Positions 3,709 to 64,000 of a stretch of DNA of 64,000 nt are shown piece by piece. Position 1 is the first letter of the stretch. Each line of letters begins with the position of its first letter. Origin of the DNA: Bifidobacterium [indicum] DSM 20214 = LMG 11587 (GTDB lineage Bacteria > Actinomycetota > Actinomycetes > Actinomycetales > Bifidobacteriaceae); contig NZ_CP006018.1 in assembly GCF_000706765.1 (NCBI RefSeq), positions 1,302,001-1,366,000 on the forward strand, read 5' to 3'. The position numbers and the translations under genes are program-made. The notes under the pieces are model-generated. The model had not been told where the DNA came from, did not search any database, and saw nothing but the letters and a program-made list of their open reading frames with translations.

Positions 3709-4804
3709 GGACTCCATCATTGCATATGAGAATGACTTGACACTTACGAAAAGCTGAATACGAACTGGGAAAAACAGGCCCCTGCTGGCCGTGCCAATCC
3801 GAAGCCAGGGCATCCAACGATTCAACCTGTTGGGAGCTCGCCGGGACTCCCAGATTCGACAGAAGGTGGGCCAGGAACCGTAAGCGAAGGGCCGAATCCC
3901 GGGTGGAAAGGCTGCGGGCATCCAGACGAGCCAGAATCCCCTGGTCGGCGTCATCGGGTTCGGGGGGCATGACCACCTGGTCGGCCAGAGCATCCGCCTG
4001 CCGGTCCAGATATTCGGCATCCCGCCTGGCAAGGTCCGCCCCTTGGGTCAGACGACGGACCATGTCGCGACCGGCGAACCGGCTCAGCCCAGGCAGGAGG
4101 TCATGCCGCACCCGCGAGCGCAGGGGAAGGTCCGCAGGAAGGGGCTGGTCGTCAGGGAACCCGTCGCCGTTGGTGGGGTCATCCCACCAGGAGAGCCCCT
4201 GCTGCCGGCATATCTCCGTCGTCTCCTGCCGGGTAAGTCCCAGGAAGGGGCGCAGATAGTCGAGCCCGTCCCGTTTCATCCGATGGTTCATGCCGGTGAT
4301 GGCATCCAGACCTTGGGACCTGATAAGCCCGATGAGCACGGTCTCGGCCTGGTCATCCATCGTGTGGGCCAAAAGGACGGCTGAGGCGTTGACGCGTCCG
4401 GCTTCTTCCCCTATGGCCTCATACCTGGCCTCACGGGCATCGGCCTCCAGACCTGCACTGGTGCGGCGCACTTGGACAGACCTAACCAGAACAGGGTCCA
4501 GACCCAGCTTCCGGCAGTTCGCTGCGGCTTCGAGGCTGACTCGATCGGACCCCTCGGAGAGCCCATGATCAATCAGGATCGCCCCGCATCGCAGACCCAA
4601 CATGGCCGAGACCGTAGCAGCAACCGATGCCAGAGCCATGGAGTCCCGCCCGCCGGAGCAGGCAACAAGTACGAGCGGCGCATCGGGGTCGGGCAGATGG
4701 CTGCCGTGTCGGGTGAACCTATCGCCCTGCCTGCCCAGCCCGGCATCCTCAAGACTGGAGCGGAGGGCTCCCACAGCCTTCTTCATCTGAGCGGAATACA
4801 CCAC
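3695..4804 (-). CDS. tilS: tRNA(Ile)-lysidine synthase
   Basis: Adds lysine to C34 of tRNA-Ile(CAU), so that the tRNA reads AUA and is charged with isoleucine. The 369-residue product carries the N-type ATP pyrophosphatase P-loop SGGRDS at about residues 50-55 and the LAHTMDDQAETVLIGLIR segment of the family. The C-terminal half is short and diverged, as in many actinobacterial TilS. The start is a GTG at 4804 preceded by AGGAGG; an internal ATG at 4786 is possible. It lies 31 nt downstream of the PBP4-type gene, so all may share a transcript. Confidence 0.93.
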   Translation of the reverse strand: MVYSAQMKKAVGALRSSLEDAGLGRQGDRFTRHGSHLPDPDAPLVLVACSGGRDSMALASVAATVSAMLGLRCGAILIDHGLSEGSDRVSLEAAANCRKLGLDPVLVRSVQVRRTSAGLEADAREARYEAIGEEAGRVNASAVLLAHTMDDQAETVLIGLIRSQGLDAITGMNHRMKRDGLDYLRPFLGLTRQETTEICRQQGLSWWDDPTNGDGFPDDQPLPADLPLRSRVRHDLLPGLSRFAGRDMVRRLTQGADLARRDAEYLDRQADALADQVVMPPEPDDADQGILARLDARSLSTRDSALRLRFLAHLLSNLGVPASSQQVESLDALASDWHGQQGPVFPSSYSAFRKCQVILICNDGVHANR

Positions 4805-58953: not shown

Positions 58954-60477
58954 ATGCCCATCAATCACGCGCATGGGGAAGTCCCTGACTTCCCCACCTG
59001 GGCGGCAGCCATGTCGCAAACCAGCAACCGGTCACTGGCCGGAGCCAGGCTGGTGCTGCCCGACGACACCATGACCGATTGCCAGCGACAGCGACTGATC
59101 AGCCAGGCCCAGGAGTGGGGAATGGTCGTGCAGGATGTCGACAGTGTGGACGCCACCGCATCCGAGGATTCCGCCCGCCCCCATCCCGCTGACTTCGACC
59201 TGCCATTCGGCCCCACGGAGACCATGGTGGATATGCGTCGGTCCAGCGGGGGCGAGGCCATAGACTGGGCCCAATCCCGGATGCCCATCCTGACCGGGCT
59301 TATGGCAAGGCTCAAGTCCGAAGTGGACTTCGGCTCGGCACGGATCGCCACCTGTCTGATCCTGGAACCCAAGACCGCCGTGCTGCTCAGGGAGCTGAAG
59401 CGTGCAGGGGCCGAGGTGGGTGTCTACTGCGAACCCGGGGCCGTGGACCAGCGTGTCGCCGATCAGCTCAAGCAGGAGGGAATCACCGTATGCGCCGACT
59501 CCTCCTGGGACGACGACCAGGCCAGGCAGGGTGCCCTGGACCTGATGGACAGGATCAACCCCAACCTGATCATCGATGACGGCGCCTCCTTCGCCCGCCT
59601 GGCTCTCCGCGAGCGCCCGCACATGGCTGCGGACCTGATGGGCGTCGCCGAGGAGACCACATCCGGAGTGAGGGCCTTTGCCGCCATGGAAAGGGATGAA
59701 GCCCTGACCTTCCCGGTCATCGCCGTCAACGACAGCCTGATGAAGACGGACTTCGACAACGCCCACGGCACCGGTGAGACCTGCCTGACCACCATGCAAT
59801 CACTCCTGGGGGCACACTGTTTCCAAGGGCAGCGGGTCCTTGTTGTCGGATACGGACCTGTCGGGCGCGGGTTCGCCCTGGGCGCCCGGGCTCTGGGCGC
59901 CCATGTCAGCGTCAGCGACACCGACCCCCGGGCCGCGCTCCGTGCGGTATTTGATGGCTTCCCCTCCCAGGACACCTCGGAGGCCCTGCCCGTGGCCGAT
60001 ATGGTCATCTCGGCCACGGGGGTCACCCACACCATCGACCTGGAAGACATGCAAGCCATGAAATCGGGAGCGGTCCTGGCCGTCATTGGGGGAATCGCCA
60101 ATGAGGTGGCCCTGGACCGAATCCCGAACTGGCTCCCTTCCCAGGTCGATGAGGTCATGACCATCAGTGTCCCGGACGGGCCGGAGCTCACCCTGATCAG
60201 CCAGGGTGATGGGGTCAACTACACGGCAGGGGGCGGCAATCCGATTGAAATCATGGACCTGAGCTTCGCCGTCCAGGTATCCGCCCTGGCCCATCTGATC
60301 AGGCATGGCAGGGAGTTGGATCGGAGGGTCCACCGGCTCCCCGATCAGGTCGACAGGCGCATCGCTTCACTGGCATTGGAGGCCCGCGGCTACCAGGTAC
60401 GCCATCAGGCATCCGAGACCGTCCAGGATTGGAGAACCACCCGTTTTGATGCCCGAAGGGAGAAATCGCAGGCATGA
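58954..60477 (+). CDS. Adenosylhomocysteinase-like NAD-binding hydrolase with changed purine pocket
   Basis: Homologue of S-adenosylhomocysteine hydrolase, 507 residues. The NAD site VVGYGPVGRG (297-306), the EETTSG segment (233-238) and the catalytic NDSLMKTDFDN (259-269, K264 and D268) are kept, so the redox-hydrolysis chemistry is probably intact. The adenine pocket is not. Human H55, T57 and E59 in LHMTVET correspond here to I136, E138 and K140 in LILEPKT. The GHPS segment with the second pocket His reads GGNPIEIMD (427-435). The C-terminal KPDHYRY is absent. The next gene, a deaminase, overlaps by 4 bp. It may act on a deaminated substrate such as S-inosylhomocysteine. The ATG at 58954 follows AGGAGAG. 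Confidence 0.85.
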   Translation: MPINHAHGEVPDFPTWAAAMSQTSNRSLAGARLVLPDDTMTDCQRQRLISQAQEWGMVVQDVDSVDATASEDSARPHPADFDLPFGPTETMVDMRRSSGGEAIDWAQSRMPILTGLMARLKSEVDFGSARIATCLILEPKTAVLLRELKRAGAEVGVYCEPGAVDQRVADQLKQEGITVCADSSWDDDQARQGALDLMDRINPNLIIDDGASFARLALRERPHMAADLMGVAEETTSGVRAFAAMERDEALTFPVIAVNDSLMKTDFDNAHGTGETCLTTMQSLLGAHCFQGQRVLVVGYGPVGRGFALGARALGAHVSVSDTDPRAALRAVFDGFPSQDTSEALPVADMVISATGVTHTIDLEDMQAMKSGAVLAVIGGIANEVALDRIPNWLPSQVDEVMTISVPDGPELTLISQGDGVNYTAGGGNPIEIMDLSFAVQVSALAHLIRHGRELDRRVHRLPDQVDRRIASLALEARGYQVRHQASETVQDWRTTRFDARREKSQA

Positions 60478-61862
60478 AGACAGCATCATCGGCACTGGGC
60501 AACCTGGGGCTGGGAGAAGACCGCTTGGCGGATGTGACCGTATACTCCGCCAAGCTCGTCATCCCCGTCACCGCACCGGTCATCGTCAATGGGGCCGTTG
60601 CGGTAAGCGGCGACAGGGTGGTCCATGTGGGCACACGGGCCTGGGTCCTCCAGGAGCTCAAGGAGGAGGCACCCGGGGGCAAGGTGACCGAACGGTACTG
60701 GGACGGGATTCTCATGCCGGGTCTGGTCAACGCCCACACCCACCTGCAGTACACGGGCATGGCCGAGGTGGGTCAGGGCGAGTACAAGGACTTCCACGCC
60801 TGGGAAGAGGCCTTCAACCTGATTTACGACGATGAGAGCCTGCCCCACGCCTGGCGCTACTGGGCCGTGGAGGGAGCCCGTCAGTGTGTCGAGTCCGGCA
60901 CCACGGCCGCGGCCGATATCGTCACCGACCTGGACGCGGCCGCGGGCATGGTGTCCCAAGGTATGCACGGCATCACCTACTGGGAGGTCATGGGCTGGGG
61001 AAACGAGGACTGGGACGACAGGGGCCGGTACCGCCTCAACCTCGAGCTGCATCGACTGGAGGAGGAGCACGTCCGGCAGTTGGGCATCAGCCCCCATGCC
61101 CCCTACACCCTGGAGGCCGAGCCTTTTGTGGACCTGCCCGACATCGCCAGGCGTCTGAACATGCGGCTCCACATCCATCTGGCTGAAACACCCTTGGAGG
61201 CACGAACGGAGGCCCCTGAATCGGAACGGGCCATATCGTCCGCCATCCGAGGCGACGAGACCTGGACCAGCTATCGAGAATACAAGCGGGAGGGACAGGG
61301 ACTCTCGGCCATCCAGTTCGTGGACCAGCTGGGCTCCCTGGGGCCGGACGTGCACATCGCCCATGGGGTCTGGGCGGATGAGGAGGACCGTCGAACCCTC
61401 CGTCAGCGCCAGGTCTCCGTGGCCCTCTGCCCCAGGTCCAACCGAATCACCAACACCGGCAAGGACGCACCGGTAAGCCGGTACCTCAAGGAGGGAAACG
61501 CCCTCTGCGTGGGTACCGATTCCCTCTCCAGCTCCCCCAGCCTGGACCTTATGGACGAGGCCGCTGCGCTGTACCGGCTGGCACGCCAACAAGGGTACGG
61601 AGGCAGGGACCTCCCCCGCAGACTGATCCACATGCTGACCCTGAACGGGGCCTCCGCCATGGGATTGCATCTGGCAGCCAACCGGATAGGGCAGATCAAC
61701 GCCGGATCACTGGCCGATCTCGCCTTCATGGATATTCCCGTCAGGACGGAAAACGCGGACGCCATCGATCGGACCCTGGAAGAGCTGGTCGCCTCCGGCG
61801 GCGGCCACAACCGAGCCACCCTCATATCCGGCCGGGTGGCCTACAATGCCGGTATCTTCTGA
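60474..61862 (+). CDS. Amidohydrolase of the SAH/MTA or aminofutalosine deaminase group
   Basis: Metal-dependent aminohydrolase of 462 residues. The metal ligands are H88 and H90 (NAHTHLQY), H235 (HIHLAET), H297 (AHGVW) and D349 (GTDSL), with ISPHAPY in between. The set is complete. The group deaminates 5'-substituted adenosines: S-adenosylhomocysteine, methylthioadenosine, 5'-deoxyadenosine or 6-aminodeoxyfutalosine. Sequence such as NAHTHLQYTGM and TDSLSSSPSLD recalls the Streptomyces aminodeoxyfutalosine deaminase group, from memory. ATGA overlap with the SAH-hydrolase-like gene argues for a coupled substrate. No futalosine-pathway genes are in the window. Confidence 0.88.
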   Translation: MKTASSALGNLGLGEDRLADVTVYSAKLVIPVTAPVIVNGAVAVSGDRVVHVGTRAWVLQELKEEAPGGKVTERYWDGILMPGLVNAHTHLQYTGMAEVGQGEYKDFHAWEEAFNLIYDDESLPHAWRYWAVEGARQCVESGTTAAADIVTDLDAAAGMVSQGMHGITYWEVMGWGNEDWDDRGRYRLNLELHRLEEEHVRQLGISPHAPYTLEAEPFVDLPDIARRLNMRLHIHLAETPLEARTEAPESERAISSAIRGDETWTSYREYKREGQGLSAIQFVDQLGSLGPDVHIAHGVWADEEDRRTLRQRQVSVALCPRSNRITNTGKDAPVSRYLKEGNALCVGTDSLSSSPSLDLMDEAAALYRLARQQGYGGRDLPRRLIHMLTLNGASAMGLHLAANRIGQINAGSLADLAFMDIPVRTENADAIDRTLEELVASGGGHNRATLISGRVAYNAGIF

Positions 61863-61888
61863 TTGAACCGAGAAGGACGGAGACCCTT

Positions 61889-62377
61889 ATGAGCTTGGCA
61901 CTACAGGACATGAGTCCCTACGCACGTTCCCTGGTGGACCGCCTGGGACTGGAGCCCCACCCCGAAGGCGGCTGGTATGTGAGTGATTGGCGGAGCACCC
62001 GTATGGACACCGCCAGCGAGAGGCCGCTCTCATCCCTGATTTACTTCCTCCTGGCCCAGGGCGATGCCAGCGCATGGCACAAGGTGGATGCCGACGAAAT
62101 CTGGCTCTGGCACGGACCGGCACCCGTCCATCTGCAACTGGGAGGATACGGCGACTCCCCCGCCCGGGAGCCGGACCAGCTGACCGATATCACGCTGGGA
62201 TCACAGCTGACCGAGGGCGGAGACACCGCAGCCGATGCAACCCCTTGCGGGCACTATCTGGTTCCTGAGGGATGCTGGCAGCGGACTCTCCCGGGCCAGG
62301 GCGATGCGTTGGTTTCCTGCGTGGTCAGCCCCGGCTTCACCTTCGACGGCTTCATCCTTGAGGATTCAACAGACTGA
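61889..62377 (+). CDS. Cupin, DUF985 family
   Basis: A 162-residue single-domain cupin. The family features are PHPEGGWYVSDWRS, SSLIYFLLAQGDASAWHKVDADEIWLWHGPAP and VPEGCWQ. The His/Glu residues in the second stretch could bind a metal. Function is unknown; relatives may epimerise or bind sugars. It is 26 nt after the deaminase gene and likely in the same operon. Its last 26 nt overlap the convergent nucleosidase-like gene. Confidence 0.82.
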   Translation: MSLALQDMSPYARSLVDRLGLEPHPEGGWYVSDWRSTRMDTASERPLSSLIYFLLAQGDASAWHKVDADEIWLWHGPAPVHLQLGGYGDSPAREPDQLTDITLGSQLTEGGDTAADATPCGHYLVPEGCWQRTLPGQGDALVSCVVSPGFTFDGFILEDSTD

Positions 62378-63173
62378 CCGTCTTGAGGGCAACACGCGCG
62401 GCGGCATCGGCGGCCATATCCATATCGGCCTCATGGCTGTTCAGGTCATCATAGGCCTGGCCGCAAGGGTTGCTGATGCCCCGCACACAGAGGAAGGGCA
62501 CCGCACACTTACCGCAGACCTGAGCCGCGGAGGCCTCCTCCATGGCCTCCCCGTCGGCCCGGAACCTGGTGACCAGCTCGTCCAACACCTCAGGAGCGGT
62601 GTTGAAGCGATCGCTGGTCGAGATGTTGCCGACCACAAAATGAGTCTCCTGGCCACTCCTTTCCCCTCCTGGTTCCACTATCGGTGCCGGGCGGGCATCG
62701 CGTCCCCTCCAACGCCCCGATGCGACCAGGTCCCCTACGGATTCAGCCCGCTGGTAGCCCAGTGCCTCGGCCGCTGAAGTGGCGGCTTGGAGAAGGTCCG
62801 AATCAGCCGGGAAGTACTCCAGGTAGGGAGGACACTCGGCGATGATTGCCGTGTTGGTTTCCGCATAATGCTGCTCGGCCCCGATAAGCAGGTCTCCAAT
62901 GGCCAGGTTGGGGTTGATCGATCCTGCGATTCCGCTGAAAATCACCGCCTGCGGATTGAACCGGTCAATCAGGAACTGGGCGCAGGAGGCCGAATTGGCC
63001 ACTCCCATACCACCGACGCAGACCGCCAGATTCATGCCGGCATAGGTTCCGGTCCATACATGGTTCCCAAGCAGGGCAAGCTCCTGCCGCCCCTCCAGTG
63101 CGGCCCTGATTGGGGCCGCTTCCCTGTCCAAGGCGCATTGAATGGTCACGGTGCTGATCTGTTTCCTGTCCAT
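62352..63173 (-). CDS. MTA/SAH nucleosidase-like protein with Asn in place of the catalytic Asp
   Basis: Purine-nucleosidase fold of the Pfs (MTAN) family, 273 residues. The Glu near the N-terminus (ALDREAAPI) and the motifs VCVGGMGVANS, FSGIAGSINPNLAIGD and AMEEASAAQVC, with the ribose-binding Glu, are present. The purine-site motif, normally R-x-I-S-D, reads RGISN, so Asn235 (codon AAC at 62471-62469) replaces the Asp that protonates N7 and binds the 6-amino group. A purine nucleoside phosphorylase rule, Asp for 6-amino and Asn for 6-oxo, predicts a deaminated substrate. I chose the ATG at 63173. It is convergent with the cupin gene. Confidence 0.85.
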   Translation of the reverse strand: MDRKQISTVTIQCALDREAAPIRAALEGRQELALLGNHVWTGTYAGMNLAVCVGGMGVANSASCAQFLIDRFNPQAVIFSGIAGSINPNLAIGDLLIGAEQHYAETNTAIIAECPPYLEYFPADSDLLQAATSAAEALGYQRAESVGDLVASGRWRGRDARPAPIVEPGGERSGQETHFVVGNISTSDRFNTAPEVLDELVTRFRADGEAMEEASAAQVCGKCAVPFLCVRGISNPCGQAYDDLNSHEADMDMAADAAARVALKTVSLLNPQG

Positions 63174-63416
63174 GGTTCGATGGTCGCCGACATGGCCGAC
63201 AAACATTGGTCGCATAGATGAAATCTAGAGGCCCTTATAAGAAAAACTGAAGTGCTATCCTCCATATGGATGTCTGTACGGGCGCGCTCCGGTAGACCTT
63301 TGCCGCTAGTATGGTTCCCGTCCGGACGGTTGAGGAGATTATCGCCGAGACTGGTTGTTGACCGGATCCGATCCCAGTAGCCACCACAGTCATTGTCACT
63401 AAGGAGCAATCCACAC

Positions 63417-64000
63417 ATGACCCTCTTCACCAGGAAGACAACGACCAGGTTCATGGTCGCAGCACTCACCTTCGCCACCCTGATGTCGGGAGCGGCCTGC
63501 GGTTCCGGCTCGTCCTCGGCCAAGGACGACACCAAGTCGGGAGCCATCACCGAAGAGACCATCAATCCCGGTACCCTGACCATCGCCACGGGGGATCCCG
63601 CATACACGCCCTACGTCGAAGACAACGATCCCGAGAGCGGCAAGGGCTATGAGGCCGCCGTCGCCTACGCGGTCGCCGAGAAGATGGGCTTCAGCAAGGA
63701 CAAGGTCAAGTGGACCCGCACCTCCTTCGATGCCGCCATCGCCCCGGGCACCAAGGACTTCGACATGAACATCCAGCAGTTCTCGATCACTTCAGAACGC
63801 AAGAATGCCGTCGATTTCACCCCCAGCTACTACAACTCCACCCAATCCCTGGTTGTCCACAAGGATTCCAAGTACGCCTCGGTGAAGTCCCTGAGCGAGC
63901 TCAAGGACGCCAAGATCGGCGCCATGGTGGGTTCGACCTCATACACTGTGGCACAGGACAAGCTCAAGAAGGACGTCCAGACCTTCAACGACAACGCCAC
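63417..64000 (+). CDS. Amino-acid-type ABC transporter binding lipoprotein (partial)
   Basis: The first 194 residues of a family 3 solute-binding protein that collects polar amino acids outside the cell. The signal peptide ends in a lipobox (SGAAC, lipid-modified C28), followed by a Ser/Gly linker. The mature domain starts GTLTIATGDPAYTPYV and has the family's FDMNIQQFSITSERKNAVDFTPSYY. AAGGAG lies about 11 nt before the ATG at 63417. The 243 bp upstream of it (63174-63416) hold no other gene. The gene runs off the right edge, so its permease partners are not visible. Confidence 0.92.
   Translation, partial: MTLFTRKTTTRFMVAALTFATLMSGAACGSGSSSAKDDTKSGAITEETINPGTLTIATGDPAYTPYVEDNDPESGKGYEAAVAYAVAEKMGFSKDKVKWTRTSFDAAIAPGTKDFDMNIQQFSITSERKNAVDFTPSYYNSTQSLVVHKDSKYASVKSLSELKDAKIGAMVGSTSYTVAQDKLKKDVQTFNDNA

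Follow-up and report, generated by a model that had tools for sequence, protein, structure and literature searches.

A SAHH-like protein without catalytic histidines beside a deaminase in Bifidobacterium: a possible inosine-type route for sulfur nucleosides

What might a bifidobacterium do with a gene for a protein resembling S-adenosylhomocysteine hydrolase (SAHH) that is set beside genes for a candidate 5′-substituted-adenosine deaminase, a cupin and a nucleosidase? The question arises from a 64,000-base stretch of Bifidobacterium [indicum] DSM 20214 (hereinafter the window; bases 1302001–1366000 of a 1,734,546-base single-contig genome), which codes for these proteins as P0001 to P0004, respectively. 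The genome has one AdoHcyase gene, one LuxS and two PF01048 genes, one of which is P0004. Methanocaldococcus uses a deaminase of S-adenosylhomocysteine (SAH) together with an S-inosylhomocysteine (SIH) hydrolase instead of direct SAH hydrolysis, and an earlier note on this DNA had invoked a comparable 6-oxopurine route for P0001, P0002 and P0004. The 6-oxopurine part of that idea appears well supported by the residues involved; the concrete oddity, as far as the sequences tell, is a SAHH devoid of catalytic histidines that is fixed beside a deaminase. We favor, with belief and doubt evenly balanced, the reading that the locus is a module that imports and degrades an amino-acid-bearing 5′-thioether nucleoside (SAH or a close relative) via its inosine form.

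Base pocket and active site of the SAHH-like protein

According to Koeppl 2024 (PMC10978960), enzymes with an HxTxE(Q) fingerprint prefer SAH and those with HxExK, among them the T. maritima SAHH, prefer SIH, hypoxanthine substrates being favored by ExK enzymes. P0001 reads I136-L-E138-P-K140, i.e., the Glu and Lys of the SIH type as against the Thr and Glu(Gln) of the SAH type, and the HxTxE(Q) adenine fingerprint of EC 3.3.1.1 is absent from it. A single peptide-pattern scan of genome contigs, which may miss distant members, yielded 45 loci coding for this protein: 44 are titled as members of the Bifidobacteriaceae or uncultured actinobacteria (two being Aeriscardovia aeriphila, and some coming from the same genomes as the family sample discussed below) and one as Clostridiales Family XIII. 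E138 and K140 are present in all 45. The scan used two patterns, one with D209 and one running from the neighbor of K264 to H271 (with D268, N269 and H271), and the fixity of D209, K264, D268, N269 and H271 is thereby in part a product of selection; E138, K140 and the three histidine places discussed next lie outside the patterns, and 12/12 proteins gathered without the scan show the same residue states.

SAHHs are known for their conserved catalytic histidines. According to Kusakabe 2015 (PMC4647836; see also the review PMC13406329), His55 is the general base for water, Asp131 the C4′ proton donor and His301 the residue that holds the intermediate, while Lys186 and Thr157 lie at O3′, Glu156 and Asp190 at O2′, and His353 contacts the base via its main chain, its side chain being less important. 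When this human numbering is transferred via alignment, I136, D209, G380 and N429 of P0001 correspond to His55, Asp131, His301 and His353, and K264, T235, E234 and D268 to Lys186, Thr157, Glu156 and Asp190. The His55 place is occupied by Ile in 28 and Val in 17 of the loci, with the loss of the catalytic His of HxExK; the His301 place has Gly throughout, with the loss of the Gly-His-Phe gate; and the His353 place has Asn throughout. In contrast, D209, E234, T235, K264, D268 and N269 are retained in 45/45 loci, Family XIII included. The water-handling part of SAHH is thus gone, and its redox (NAD), ribose and C4′ residues remain. A family-specific histidine, H271, is found in all 45 loci as well as in the 12 proteins collected independently of the scan, and might possibly be a relocated acid/base.

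The SAHH fold with its NAD Rossmann domain is present in P0001 according to Pfam, the AlphaFold model (mean predicted local distance difference test score, pLDDT, 90.0; predicted template-modeling score, pTM, 0.88) and the fold match, with the inosine-bound P. furiosus SAHH as the closest fold, followed by the T. maritima SAHH. P0001 shares with the SIH hydrolases (SIHHs; M. jannaschii SIHH and the T. maritima and P. furiosus SAHHs; EC 3.13.1.9) this fold, the ExK pair, the glycines of the NAD domain and the presence of a deaminase in the same organism. It differs from them in the replacement of the HxExK His, the GHF-gate His and His353, in an added N-terminal part and C-terminal DWxxTRF motif, and in the deaminase gene being adjoining or fused. 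With canonical SAHH (EC 3.3.1.1) it has the fold, the NAD- and ribose-linked residues and the NCBIfam name in common, but it shows I/V-x-E-x-K for HxTxE(Q) and is without the catalytic histidines. Two conserved segments mark its ends: TNRSLAG within residues 20–30 (TNRSIAG in the Family XIII protein) and DWxxTRF at residues 493–498.

Since the equivalents of His55 and His301 (and His353) are lost, P0001 falls outside the definition of a SAH or SIH hydrolase, and the name S-inosylhomocysteine hydrolase suggested earlier is not supported in any of the 45 loci. Judged by its residues, it nonetheless likely acts on SIH. The Methanocaldococcus-like alternative of ordinary SIH hydrolysis, yielding inosine and homocysteine with the lost histidine roles covered by other residues, is consistent with the ExK fingerprint, the deaminase partner, the closest folds being SIH-preferring enzymes and H271 accompanying the losses. 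We nevertheless regard it as doubtful, both for the consistent loss of the three histidines and because in another actinobacterial genome (G307) a His-bearing HxExK enzyme adjoins the His-less one, which would make the second redundant. One may tentatively entertain that the His-less SAHHs are instead a class of NAD-dependent lyases acting on imported 6-oxopurine thioether nucleosides, with P0001 perhaps as its first described member: 3′-oxidation and C4′ deprotonation would lead to the loss of homocysteine with no water added, and the resulting 4′,5′-didehydro or 4-keto sugar would pass to the nucleosidase and cupin. Were this so, SAH recycling would have a fourth route in addition to SAHH, Pfs/LuxS and SIHH, one in which autoinducer-2 is not made. 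The lost histidines would also suit a catalytically dead sensor or regulatory subunit, with the chemistry left to the deaminase and nucleosidase. This is improbable given the invariance of the six retained residues and an in-frame fusion to the deaminase in Family XIII, which suits channeling better than a relic.

The deaminase, nucleosidase and cupin

The four genes code for AdoHcyase plus AdoHcyase_NAD, Amidohydro_1, Cupin_5 and PNP_UDP_1 domains. In the Amidohydro_1 protein, H88, H90, H208, H235 and E238 are present in 47/47 rows, as are H297 and D349 in all 46 rows reaching these positions, giving it the HxH, further metal-binding His, catalytic Glu and Asp of adenosine-type amidohydrolases. 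It reaches none of the NCBIfam cut-offs among the matches listed (25 families), including those of the 5′-methylthioadenosine (MTA)/SAH deaminases (NF012037, 65.3 vs 779) and the 5′-deoxyadenosine deaminase DadD (NF005557, 110.7 vs 522). With the latter two groups (TM0936, DadD) it shares the metal residues and a Trp at the position of TM0936 W75, but in a pairwise alignment R136 of TM0936 is not retained. As for SCO5662-type deaminases, to which the earlier note had pointed, a single-query search of four actinobacterial genomes at 1e-15, run without a positive control, found no match and speaks neither for nor against a link.

The PNP_UDP_1 protein P0004 is a nucleosidase of the futalosine hydrolase (MqnB) and MTA/SAH nucleosidase (MTAN, Pfs) family, sharing their fold and the catalytic Glu positions (E32 and E226; the MTAN counterparts are presumably Glu12 and Glu174). 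It is set apart from MTAN by Asn (N249) for Asp197, a residue acting at adenine N7. This Asn and the surrounding RxxSNxxG are found in all 13 nucleosidase rows covering the position. P0004 reads RGISNPCG, comparable to the RTISNPIG, RTVSNAVG and RAVSNPVG of three futalosine hydrolases found via TIGR03664 in two actinobacterial genomes, as opposed to the RALSD of the Pfs encoded elsewhere in its own genome and of five other bifidobacterial Pfs proteins (a sixth, in L099, has no row). It lies below the cut-offs of both TIGR03664 (76.9 vs 124.7 bits) and NF004079 (116.7 vs 169). Its AlphaFold model (mean pLDDT 85.9) retrieves the MTAN fold with Foldseek, the fourth-ranking match being the Asp197Asn mutant of the E. 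coli enzyme with 5′-methylthioadenosine (1z5o).

The base-recognition differences that had been claimed for the SAHH-like protein and nucleosidase are indeed present as E138/K140 and N249. Together with the retained deaminase residues, they indicate that the three purine-handling proteins probably fit 6-oxopurine (inosine-type) substrates, and the proposed 6-oxopurine route gains from the deaminase adjoining the SAHH-like gene in every locus. A use of the deaminase and nucleosidase in the aminofutalosine (menaquinone) pathway could appeal to the RxxSNxxG shared with futalosine hydrolases and to the aminofutalosine deaminase model, which aligns deaminase residues 29–428 in one stretch. However, both proteins remain under the curated cut-offs (NF006269, 104.9 vs 320 bits, for the deaminase) and no SAHH-like partner is known in that pathway; as judged from the proteins of the cluster, this alternative is highly improbable. 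The nearest PDB chains of the Cupin_5 protein (1znp, 1yud, 3m3i and 3loi) carry no function name; it could possibly perform a sugar-handling step.

Linkage, importer and the likely substrate

Neighbors were counted by tblastn at 1e-20. The SAHH-like and deaminase genes are neighbors on one strand in 45/45 loci, 0 to 565 bases apart, and this linkage, with the residue changes fixed over the loci, exceeds what is expected by chance. A Cupin_5 gene lies near the pair in 41 loci (upstream of it in L042, L044 and L046), and genes for an ATP-binding cassette (ABC) importer of the amino-acid type are likewise close (binding protein in 42, permease in 41 and ATPase in 40 loci). Three of the loci (L064, L065 and L066) are contigs of less than 6 kb. 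In Clostridiales Family XIII (L082), the SAHH-like protein and deaminase are fused in one 1036-aa open reading frame (ORF) with the same residue changes, directly followed by the same importer (48/55/60% identity). In G307, the row comprises the binding protein, permease and ATPase (44/43/44% identity), the His-bearing HxExK SAHH, the His-less protein (Val, Met and Asn at the places of His55, His301 and His353, and Gln at 275) and the deaminase. The same importer thus adjoins the pair in three lineages. Its binding protein belongs to the polar-amino-acid class and conserves Arg136, presumably the carboxylate ligand, in 47/47 rows.

Directly downstream of the fused ORF and importer and on the same strand (L082:7663-11575) are genes for BioB (325.1 bits vs 225) and a nitrogenase-like pair. 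BioB produces 5′-deoxyadenosine. The first nitrogenase-like protein scores about 260 bits with 9FMG and 9D9U, compared with about 90 for NifD/nitrogenase alpha chains, 9FMG being a methylthio-alkane reductase (MarD; PMC12552129). These neighbors suggest a sulfur-salvage setting.

From the gene content, linkage, residue states and folds observed here, we infer the substrate, the direction of transport and all of the chemistry, which might run as follows. The compound would be imported by the ABC importer and lose N6 to the amidohydrolase, giving a 5′-substituted inosine such as S-inosylhomocysteine. The SAHH-like protein would hold the hypoxanthine via E138 and K140 and oxidize C3′ with bound NAD, whereupon D209 would take the C4′ proton so that the 5′ thiol (homocysteine) could leave. 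Since neither His55 nor His301 is there to place water on C5′, the usual hydration would either be missing, giving a lyase-like product, or be rerouted to other residues, for example H271. Where present, the nucleosidase would split the 6-oxo nucleoside to free hypoxanthine, leaving the sugar product to be handled by the cupin. This proposal is supported by the ExK and RxxSNxxG signatures, the constant and once fused deaminase, the importer in three lineages with its Arg136, the retained SAHH residues, and the BioB and MarD-like genes of Family XIII. We have moderate confidence that the substrate is SAH or a near relative.

A different substrate, namely the by-product 5′-deoxyadenosine or MTA, is rather unlikely. 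Here, 5′-deoxyinosine or methylthioinosine would be oxidized at C3′ by the SAHH-like protein with loss of the base, a methyl or methylthio group at 5′ would sit in the hydrophobic I136/G380 pocket, and the importer would be a separate amino-acid transporter. The hydrophobic replacements beside C5′, the presence of 5′-deoxyadenosine deaminase among the better (albeit far sub-threshold) NCBIfam matches of the deaminase, the BioB gene in the Family XIII row and the retention of the importer alone in some genomes are all compatible with it. It leaves unexplained why the amino-acid-type importer should recur beside the pair in three lineages.

Several observations weigh against the favored import-and-degradation module. 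P0001 exceeds two NCBIfam adenosylhomocysteinase cut-offs (NF004009, 668.1 vs 485; NF004005, 338.5 vs 275) and the Family XIII protein barely exceeds one (276.9 vs 275), although P0001 is below that of TIGR00936 (287 vs 497.6); such scores give a protein its name and do not test its reaction, and the current database name, adenosylhomocysteinase, is on residue evidence probably wrong. A metabolic model of B. longum BB-46 (PMC8660834) already includes, as EC 3.3.1.1, an adenosylhomocysteinase that may or may not belong to the present family. P0004 barely exceeds the MTAN model TIGR01704 (74.9 vs 73.8). The Asp of the binding protein, which we assume to be the amino-group ligand, is Asp in only 24/47 rows, and both the fusion and the sulfur-gene neighbors come from a single metagenome-assembled genome. 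The nucleosidase lies near the pair in only 13 of the 45 loci, so that the unit of three enzymes proposed earlier gives way to one in which the cupin and importer are the steadier companions, and two rumen loci (L071 and L072; 17.4 and 12.5 kb) show the enzyme pair alone. Four genus mates (L131–L134) have radA, the importer and ribF without the enzymes, and the importer must hence have some use of its own. Finally, of the 12 genomes with the cluster among 61 sampled, 10 have LuxS and all 12 have a PF01048 protein encoded outside the cluster. A SAH route looks redundant in this light, ordinary SAH recycling probably exists in these genomes, and the set is not simply the SAH recycling system of the organism. 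A clean replacement of LuxS/Pfs by the cluster was considered and rejected on the same counts.

What remains distinctive is a SIH-type base pocket without the catalytic histidines, in a protein whose gene keeps the same partners across three lineages. If the favored reading is true, a 6-oxopurine route that has gone unnoticed lets these bacteria import or recycle sulfur nucleosides, and the family offers a natural experiment on which SAHH residues serve which half-reaction. We found no description of this gene set in a literature search that was weak, being partly matched by genus names alone, and no literature on SAH uptake.

Locus layout, distribution and related classes

The gene set of the earlier note was borne out (Table 1), including the 4-bp overlap of the SAHH-like and deaminase genes and the convergent minus-strand nucleosidase beyond the cupin, whose gene it overlaps by 26 bp; the lost SAHH histidines and the importer were missing from that inventory. 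The start of P0004 is likely at 63173, in agreement with the end coordinate given there. An Rfam scan of the window detected five tRNAs; eight related loci gave no match at the gathering score, and hence no known riboswitch.

Table 1. Coordinates of the locus features (window positions unless a region is named)
Feature	Position	Strand	Length	Remark
SAHH-like NAD protein P0001	58954–60477	+	507 aa	family-specific N-terminal extension
P0001 I136-x-E138-x-K140	59359–59373	+		ExK nucleobase fingerprint retained; Ile at His55 equivalent
P0001 H271	59764–59766	+		family-specific His; Tyr/Phe in other SAHHs read
P0001 G380	60091–60093	+		replaces His301; GHF gate changed to GGI
P0001 N429	60238–60240	+		replaces His353
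Amidohydrolase-type deaminase P0002	60474–61862	+	462 aa	5′-substituted-adenosine deaminase candidate
Cupin_5 (DUF985) protein P0003	61889–62377	+		PF06172 at 1.1e-34
Pfs/MTAN-like PNP_UDP_1 nucleosidase P0004	62352–63173	−		ORF 62352–63215; homology begins near 63173
P0004 N249	62469–62471	−		replaces MTAN Asp197; RxxSNxxG segment
Amino-acid-type ABC importer, substrate-binding lipoprotein	63393–64000	+		gene cut by window end
Importer permease and ATPase	L129 7318–8175 and 8172–8945			downstream in genome

The distribution of the module is patchy. The SAHH-like protein is found in 12/61 sampled genomes of the family, its own included (E < 1e-100), and in 57/189 sampled Bifidobacteriaceae species (1e-50 or better). 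Gain and loss were followed in 20 regions of genomes that lack the SAHH-like gene (four such genomes have weak SAHH-like matches only, E 2e-4 to 9e-4), 19 taken around radA and one around a nucleosidase of G002. Besides the four genus mates mentioned above, radA directly precedes ribF in five (L135, L136, L137, L140 and L149), G002 retains the nucleosidase and importer (L146), and a genus mate without the pair (L130) retains Cupin_5 alone after radA (3730–4200), probably as a remnant of a lost cluster. The other nine have radA and no cluster genes in the stretch taken, except for a weak ATPase match in L139.

In a phylum-wide search with the family profile, 354 of 396 genomes matched, and the motif was read in seven loci besides our own (eight were returned). 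In the class of G307, 50 of 66 genomes matched, the His-less protein of G307 at 531 bits and the others at no more than 337, and 29 further loci all have His at the places of His55, His301 and His353. In a FastTree tree (midpoint-rooted, branch support not considered), the His-less proteins of G307 and Family XIII group with their bifidobacterial counterparts and are separate from the SAHHs that have the histidines. The adjoining His-bearing and His-less genes of G307 (L121:8108-9889) offer a natural comparison of the two chemistries.

A second class of His-less SAHHs occurs in another actinobacterial family (f19; L086–L091, L122 and L125). Its six proteins have ExK and keep His353; at the His55 place five have Pro and one has Ala, and at the His301 place five have Gly and one has Ala. 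No QueT-type energy-coupling factor (ECF) neighbor was seen in L123 and L124; in L122 (from the genome of L087) and L125, an ECF transporter adjoins the SAHH, and its S component has a match to QueT of Pfam.

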